Below, in pieces: positions 53,482 to 55,143 of a stretch of 64,000 nt of DNA; within the stretch, counting starts at the first letter, position 1; every line of letters starts with the position of its first letter. A program made the translations under genes and the position numbers. The stretch spans positions 1 to 64,000 of the forward strand of contig CAMDKL010000007.1 in the NCBI GenBank assembly GCA_945900945.1, given 5' to 3'. The notes beneath the pieces are model-generated. The model saw only the letters and a program-made list of their open reading frames with translations. It had not been told where the DNA came from and ran no database searches. Source of the DNA: Pirellula staleyi DSM 6068 (GTDB taxonomy: Bacteria; Planctomycetota; Planctomycetia; Pirellulales; Pirellulaceae).

Positions 53482-54528
53482 ATGTCTACTAGCGAATCAG
53501 AATGCTTACCCGAGTATGGGTCCATGATTATCGAGAAGTCGCTTGACGGGTTCCGAGTTACGGTTCCTTGCAAGGTGAATTTGTTCCTGGAAGTACTAGG
53601 AAAGAGAAATGATGGTTTTCATTCCTTGGATACCGTGATGATGGCTGTCTCACTGGTAGATGAGTTGGAAATTACCCGTCGAAAAGACGATCGGCTCGAA
53701 CTTTTGATTGAGTTTCCAGATGGATCCGGTCAATCCCTCGATGGTGACGATCTCGCGTGGCGTATTCCTGCGGATCAAAGCAACTTGATCGTTCGTGCAC
53801 TGGATCTGCTGCGAGTCACGTTGAACCAATCGTTCTCGGGGGGGGGGAAGTGCTCAGGTGCAAATGTTCGGTTGATCAAACGTATTCCAGCGATGGCAGG
53901 CCTGGGTGGCGGTAGTGCTGACGCTGCTGCCGCGTTGATCCTAGGCCTTTTATTATGGGGTACGAATGACGATTTTGGCAAAACACTAAATATTGCGAGC
54001 GAACTTGGCAGCGATATCAATTTTTTCCTCGAGGGGCATTGCGAAGGCTTTTGGCTGGCTCGATGCACCGGTAAAGGCGAGGTAATCGAACCATTGAAAT
54101 GCTTAGAGCCACTTCACTTGGTCATAGTCCACCCACCACGAGGGTGCGGGACTAGGCAAGTTTTTGAGGCATTGGAACAAGAATCTAATCGAAACCGTCG
54201 AGAACAGCCCGAAACGCTTTTGGATGCCCTAAAACGGGGGGATACAAATACCGTCGGAGGGGGTATGTTTAACAGACTTGAATCTGCTGCTATGCGGACG
54301 ACAGATTGGATTGAAAGGTCGAGAGGGTGGGTTGATCGGTATGTCCATCTCGGTCAATGCATGTCCGGGAGTGGATCGGCCAGATTTTGTTTGTGCACGA
54401 CACGTGAACAAGCCGAGAGTATAGTGAGTGAGTTGCGGACCAACGGTAGGATGCGAGCATATTACGCACAGACGTGGCAGTCGTCAGGGATAAAAGACCA
54501 GGTCGCGGGAATTCGAAACGAACCGTGA
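53482..54528 (+). CDS. ispE: 4-diphosphocytidyl-2-C-methyl-D-erythritol kinase (IspE)
   Basis: The start was set at ATG 53482 (348 aa). ATG 53524 is equally possible and gives the shorter lead usual in the family before VPCKVNLFLEVLGKRNDGFH. It is a GHMP kinase: the N-terminal motif is that Lys-Val-Asn-Leu-Phe-Leu patch, and the ATP loop is IPAMAGLGGGSADAAAALI. HPPRGCGTRQVFEAL and a late GQCMSGSGSARFCL complete the fold. It phosphorylates CDP-methylerythritol in the MEP isoprenoid route. It is followed by a SpoVG-family gene; in Bacillus ispE and spoVG also lie close together (with purR and yabJ between), so the neighbourhood may be old. Confidence 0.92.
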   Translation: MSTSESECLPEYGSMIIEKSLDGFRVTVPCKVNLFLEVLGKRNDGFHSLDTVMMAVSLVDELEITRRKDDRLELLIEFPDGSGQSLDGDDLAWRIPADQSNLIVRALDLLRVTLNQSFSGGGKCSGANVRLIKRIPAMAGLGGGSADAAAALILGLLLWGTNDDFGKTLNIASELGSDINFFLEGHCEGFWLARCTGKGEVIEPLKCLEPLHLVIVHPPRGCGTRQVFEALEQESNRNRREQPETLLDALKRGDTNTVGGGMFNRLESAAMRTTDWIERSRGWVDRYVHLGQCMSGSGSARFCLCTTREQAESIVSELRTNGRMRAYYAQTWQSSGIKDQVAGIRNEP

Positions 54529-54564: not shown

Positions 54565-55143
54565 ATGGAAATCACTGAGGTTCGAATCAAATTGATGGAA
54601 GAGTCTGAAGATCGCCTTCGGGCTTTCTGCTCCATAACGATTGACTACTCTTTCGTTATTCGAGACTTAAAAATTATTGAGGGAGCCAACGGCCCGTTCG
54701 TCGCCATGCCCAGCCGAAAAATGTCCGCTCGCTGCGGAAAATGCGGAAACAAGAACCATTTAAGAAGCAGTTATTGCAACCAATGTGGAACACGATTGCG
54801 TGGCCCGCAGGACGTCCGTGAGGTTGAGGGAGGAGGCGGATCGAACAAGATGTACGCCGACATTGCCCATCCAATCAACCAGTCTTGCAGGGATATGATC
54901 CAAAATTCGGTGATTCGCGAATATTTAGTGGAATTGGACAGAGCGAAACAACCTGACTATAAATCAAGGTATGATGACGAATACGTCGAATCGACGCATT
55001 CAGAAATTCAACCAAACTCCCAAGCCAGTCAAGCCGAATCGTCGTCCGTTCCCAAGCCATACTTTTTGGATGCTGATAAAAAGAACAGCACCAACGCGAG
55101 TAGCAACCCGGACAAGCGAAATTTTGGTGACGGCGTATTTTAA
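54565..55143 (+). CDS. SpoVG-family protein with an inserted zinc ribbon
   Basis: The protein has 192 aa against about 85-100 in SpoVG. Residues 1-55 match SpoVG ([20 protein letters not shown], then [20 protein letters not shown]). Where SpoVG goes directly to DIAHPINxxxR, this protein carries a four-Cys zinc ribbon [19 protein letters not shown] and a Gly-rich turn, then resumes with [21 protein letters not shown] long, acidic and Ser/Asn-rich tail follows. SpoVG proteins bind nucleic acid and affect cell-cycle and envelope genes. The inserted ribbon may add metal-dependent binding. GGGAG lies 13 bases before the ATG; it is between ispE and the FGE gene. Confidence 0.85.

Follow-up and report, generated by a model that had tools for sequence, protein, structure and literature searches.

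A predicted zinc ribbon inside the ispE-linked SpoVG of planctomycetes and some related phyla

SpoVG proteins and the planctomycete insert

SpoVG is a small regulator, common in bacteria, that binds DNA and RNA. Its DNA binding depends on a short basic pair of residues: K50/R51 in Staphylococcus aureus and R53/R54 in Borrelia are essential (PMC3688583). Mutagenesis has also identified six residues of a SpoVG helix that set DNA specificity (PMC3688583), and the Listeria protein binds RNA (PMC4959528). A longer form of the protein was recorded by Gupta et al. (2012), who described an insert of 32–36 aa in SpoVG as a conserved signature indel of all planctomycetes then sequenced; their text states that the insert is absent outside Planctomycetes, and zinc is not mentioned (PMC3444138). 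Among small zinc-binding modules, the RNA-binding RanBP2 fingers are defined by the pattern W-x-C-x2-4-C-x3-N-x6-C-x2-C, an aromatic residue at position 17 and a second arginine, R20 (PMC6384913).

The existence of the insert is not new, having been published as a signature indel of planctomycetes (PMC3444138). A literature search found no description of its zinc-ribbon nature, wider distribution, loss or position relative to the DNA contacts, nor of the tail tip. New here are the proposed zinc-ribbon identity, the presence of the insert outside planctomycetes, its probable loss in one Omnitrophota clade, the near-universal adjacency of ispE and spoVG, and the FGxGIF tip. An unexplained indel, formerly a bare phylogenetic marker, becomes a testable structural and functional module.

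The protein and its predicted ribbon

The gene lies in the window, which is the whole 64,000-nucleotide stretch of DNA analysed (table 1). It codes for the orthologue of SpoVG that is linked to ispE in planctomycetes and some related phyla. In a Pfam search, PF04026 spans residues 1–120 unbroken (E = 4.2e-27; 94.5 bits against a curated cut-off of 29.6), and residues 1–52 and 97–120 align to Bacillus subtilis SpoVG (2ia9) by phmmer. The NCBIfam equivalog PRK13259 scores the protein at 89.4 bits, with the match split in two by the insert; the cut-off of 108 bits that it misses is a naming threshold and no biological feature, and an insert-bearing protein of Auribacterota reaches 109.5 bits. An AlphaFold2 model of residues 1–130, built with 51 homologues (pLDDT 85.5, pTM 0.69), combines a SpoVG fold with a C4 zinc-ribbon lobe. 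Foldseek matches the core model to the SpoVG structures 2ia9 and 2i9z (E to 1.6e-7, probability 1.00, TM (target) 0.70–0.87), and all matches at E ≤ 0.001 are SpoVG structures. The original prediction had held that the chain belongs to SpoVG and resumes that fold after an insertion. It is borne out: both flanks align by profile above the Pfam cut-off, the model has the SpoVG fold, and nearly all planctomycete SpoVG proteins carry the insertion.

Table 1. Features of the spoVG locus, in window coordinates.
Feature	Coordinates	Strand	Basis
spoVG with predicted internal zinc ribbon	54565..55143	+	ATG to TAA, 192 aa; PF04026 and AlphaFold2 core model
N-terminal SpoVG part, residues 1–52, MPSRK at end	54565..54720	+	aligned to 2ia9 residues 4–54
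Insert, residues 53–96 (44 aa); ordinary SpoVG has a 7-aa loop here	54721..54852	+	alignment
Predicted zinc ribbon, residues 57–75	54733..54789	+	DZR/Zn_Ribbon_1/RanBP profiles; pLDDT about 87–88
C-terminal SpoVG part, YADIAHPIN and helix, residues 97–128	54853..54948	+	PF04026 to residue 120; helix 106–128 in model
Low-complexity tail, residues 129–192, predicted disordered	54949..55140	+	pLDDT 51–60 beyond residue 140; composition
Conserved C-terminal tip NFGDGVF, consensus F[GS]xG[IVL][FLI]	55120..55140	+	homologue tails
ispE (CDP-ME kinase), directly upstream	53524..54528	+	TIGR00154 172 bits, cut-off 138.7

The insert takes the place of the short loop that connects the conserved MPSRK strand to the DIAHPIN helix. 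The segment from K52 to D99 measures 46 aa, against 7 aa between [RK][RK] and DIAHP in insert-less SpoVG. Cysteines C57, C60, C71 and C74 form the pattern C-x2-C-x10-C-x2-C. This exact spacing is kept in 221 of 223 distinct insert-bearing homologues (a scripted count of 214 plus seven inserts parsed only as far as the fourth cysteine), which excludes a chance origin of the pattern; the first knuckle is altered in the two exceptions (L132 and L082). Conservation extends beyond the putative metal ligands to K/R, N, [LIV], R, A/S, F/Y, N and G, and four positions are nearly fixed among 190 distinct ribbons (K/R in 188, N in 187, F/Y in 182, G in 187). The Pfam family DZR is matched singly by all 51 of 51 diverse homologues (E ≤ 0.01 each; best E = 3.5e-9), and the match of the window protein itself falls under the Pfam gathering score. 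Blocks 61–70 and 71–80 of the model have a pLDDT of 87–88. The fixed cysteine spacing, the DZR matches and the C4 lobe of the model uphold the internal zinc ribbon proposed at the outset: the insert is predicted to fold as such a ribbon, very likely with zinc bound. The linker that follows it (84–92) is modelled with low confidence, and the model therefore does not fix how ribbon and helix are oriented to each other.

Taken alone, the insert matches C4 zinc fingers in Foldseek with insignificant E-values and probabilities up to 0.96. The closest by E-value is ZRANB2 ZnF2 with ssRNA (3g9y; rmsd 1.1 over 25 columns, 40% identity), but at a Foldseek E of 1.7. Membership of the RanBP2 type was considered and rejected: the cysteines and the asparagine fit, but in the window protein A55-R56 precede C57 and H65 replaces the aromatic residue. 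Histidine occupies this position 17 in 102 of 190 homologues.

The tail is unstructured in the full-length prediction. It had been described as long, acidic and rich in Ser/Asn. The last 64 residues are indeed Ser-rich (11 S, 5 N); their acidity is only mild (net charge −4), and they end in a conserved tip. Tails vary in length. Of 202 distinct homologue tails, 87 finish with F[GS]xG[IVL] followed by a hydrophobic residue; close relatives are among the 202, so the figure counts sequences rather than independent events. A slightly looser pattern occurs in 2 of 3042 control ORFs. The tip was rejected as a general tag, FGxG[IVL]x-stop being found in its own genome in spoVG and otherwise only in tiny non-gene ORFs. 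Tails that bear the F[GS]xG[IVL][FLI] tip often carry a P[HY] motif farther upstream.

Neighbourhood, distribution and loss

The end of ispE and the start of spoVG are 36 nt apart, and a gene with an FGE-sulfatase domain begins 11 nt downstream of spoVG. Among 154 insert-bearing loci, to which some genomes contribute more than one, a script places ispE immediately upstream and in the same orientation in 129. In a further 14, ispE overlaps by a stop-to-stop ORF measure and is read as adjacent; 11 are without ispE or lie at a contig edge. The suspected ispE neighbourhood is thereby confirmed, with TIGR00154 over its cut-off in the window and adjacency in nearly all homologous loci, and ispE is a probable operon partner of spoVG. 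The position between ispE and an FGE gene is correct for the window, but FGE as a conserved partner was rejected: apart from the window genome, only one relative has it next to spoVG. Desulfurellales, a Clostridia MAG and Treponema likewise have ispE and spoVG as a pair; in Planococcus and Lysinibacillus the two genes lie 1.3–1.4 kb apart. The pairing is therefore old, and it was the ispE-linked copy that acquired the ribbon. A Clostridia MAG (L317) encodes two tandem degenerate SpoVG-like repeats after a membrane-like N-terminus.

SpoVG is matched in 60 of 60 genomes of the same genus, family and order. A phylum-wide sample of 292 planctomycete genomes gives SpoVG in 182 and no SpoVG match in 110. 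Among the matches listed, all in this sample are of insert length, at least 339 bp (at least 113 aa; the model has 82 positions). The insert is also found in complete, single-contig genomes. Weaker matches, no longer than about 240 bp and without the insert, represent extra diverged copies in a small number of planctomycete genomes and the sole copy in two (G142 and G317). Such insert-less, diverged SpoVG-like copies (L152–L163; for example in G069, G096 and G111) number several per genome in some.

When genomes were scanned with an alignment of diverse sequences, this insert was recovered from many Candidatus Omnitrophota and also from Auribacterota/Theseobacter, Desantisbacteria and PVC bacterium AB1; in the same scan it is absent from the SpoVG of Bacillota, Treponema and Desulfurellales. 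Sampling of whole genomes bears this out: SpoVG is present in 115 of 145 Omnitrophota genomes, mostly at insert length, and in 14 of 39 genomes of the Auribacterota group, where the main copies are all of insert length, one being cut by a contig end. The AB1 lineage (2/2 genomes) and Desantisbacteria (4/4) carry SpoVG throughout. In a negative-control phylum, 22 of 22 SpoVG matches measure 243–246 bp. Two records under other names, L186 (Actinomycetes) and L197 (Bacteroidales), are probably misnamed, because they group among planctomycetes in an IspE tree. A mobile-element source of the insert was rejected, since no SpoVG match in phages or plasmids contains the insert, judged by match length. 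The occurrence in Omnitrophota, Auribacterota, Desantisbacteria and AB1 contradicts a 'planctomycete only' distribution, and the insert is no longer a planctomycete signature. Its wider distribution may reflect an older shared ancestor or, alternatively, transfer within the PVC neighbourhood.

One Omnitrophota group (L268, L269 and L281) has an ispE-linked SpoVG without the ribbon, and its sister L279 has an 18-residue, cysteine-free segment at the ribbon site. The four form one clade (100/99) of the IspE tree within a ribbon-bearing Omnitrophota clade (100/97), which also includes a long-branched Treponema. This nesting is most simply explained by secondary loss of the ribbon. The 18-residue segment, seen in ispE-linked SpoVG of L279 and L316, is a possible remnant of a decayed ribbon. 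Many Omnitrophota (L301–L314, L319) have a second, insert-less SpoVG that is not ispE-linked and often lacks the Arg/Lys DNA-binding pair. A tree of the SpoVG core leaves 108 of 165 inner branches unresolved; with 81 columns it is too short to separate one from several ribbon origins.

Possible roles of the ribbon and tail

R51/K52 of the window protein are the equivalents of S. aureus K50/R51, and both are conserved in at least 90% of the homologue alignment. The residues after HPIN are the equivalents of the six-residue specificity stretch (PMC3688583). The insert starts directly after the basic pair and stops just short of the specificity helix. Its ribbon has a net charge of 0 to +6 (median +4) in 245 homologues. 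Because the ribbon is basic and placed between two DNA-contacting elements, an enlarged nucleic-acid-binding face is the best explanation, and one that we hold to be somewhat more probable than its negation. A single C4 zinc ribbon would have replaced the hairpin loop between the Arg/Lys-ending strand and the specificity helix, with the SpoVG fold and multimer kept. The zinc-folded basic ribbon would project beside the known nucleic-acid face and add DNA or RNA contacts. Planctomycete SpoVG would be a regulator with an enlarged binding surface, and the disordered tail with its conserved tip could tether a partner protein. Contact between the ribbon and nucleic acid is moderately likely.

C4 ribbons often bind proteins rather than nucleic acid, which counts against this explanation, as does the incomplete RanBP2 RNA-binding signature of the ribbon, with Trp, aromatic 17 and R20 missing from the sequence. 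The same incompleteness suits a ribbon that acts as a protein–protein docking module, serving RNA polymerase, a ribonuclease or the self-assembly of SpoVG, while nucleic acid stays on the classical face. In Foldseek, the ribbon's neighbours are mostly C4 fingers that bind ubiquitin or Ran, and the conserved tail tip suggests partners. Docking nevertheless appears rather unlikely, if still plausible: the basic charge in nearly all homologues and the site of the ribbon between two DNA-contact elements both point to nucleic acid.

A mere structural clamp of the lengthened loop, or a zinc or redox switch, would give the ribbon no ligand of its own. The Omnitrophota clade that keeps the protein beside ispE without the ribbon fits such a role, and its persistence indicates that the SpoVG fold does not need the ribbon; conservation beyond the metal ligands, on the other hand, exceeds what a clamp needs, and we regard this role as improbable. 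The draft state of the assembly could suggest an artefact, by mis-assembly, frameshift or a chance CxxC in an unrelated protein. The matches in all 60 relatives, the complete genomes and the invariant spacing reduce its probability to almost nothing.

The enlarged nucleic-acid-binding face can be extended to a broader, decidedly tentative picture that is doubtful as a whole. Zn-SpoVG might be an ancient global regulator with two nucleic-acid-reading heads (helix and ribbon) in a single fold and an SSB-like disordered tail whose FGxGIF tip recruits a partner, possibly a post-transcriptional hub. We know of no such control hub in planctomycetes and neighbouring phyla. SSB has a disordered tail ending in a tip, which the SpoVG tail and tip resemble by analogy only; the tip as a partner-binding peptide is speculative. 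Planctomycetes nonetheless gain a concrete candidate global regulator, and point mutants can separate the contributions of ribbon, helix and tail.

The window protein shares with ordinary SpoVG (PF04026; B. subtilis 2ia9, S. epidermidis 2i9z) a common fold, the MPS[RK][RK] and HPI motifs and the ispE neighbourhood. It differs in the 46-aa segment with the predicted zinc ribbon, in place of the 7-aa loop, and in its long disordered tail, which ends in a conserved tip. The DZR and Zn_Ribbon_1 families (PF12773, PF13240) have the same C-x2-C-x3-N-x6-C-x2-C-G pattern, but the SpoVG ribbon is single, lies inside another domain and has its own conserved K-N-[H]-[LIV]-R core. With the RanBP2-type finger (ZRANB2 ZnF2) it shares C-x2-C-x3-N-x6-C-x2-C, a similar predicted backbone and, in most SpoVG ribbons, an arginine at R19; unlike that finger, it is without the Trp before the first cysteine, the aromatic residue at 17 and R20, which is mostly A/S. 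Compared with the indel of Gupta et al. (2012; PMC3444138), it is the same insert, read here as a zinc ribbon and found in at least four further lineages.
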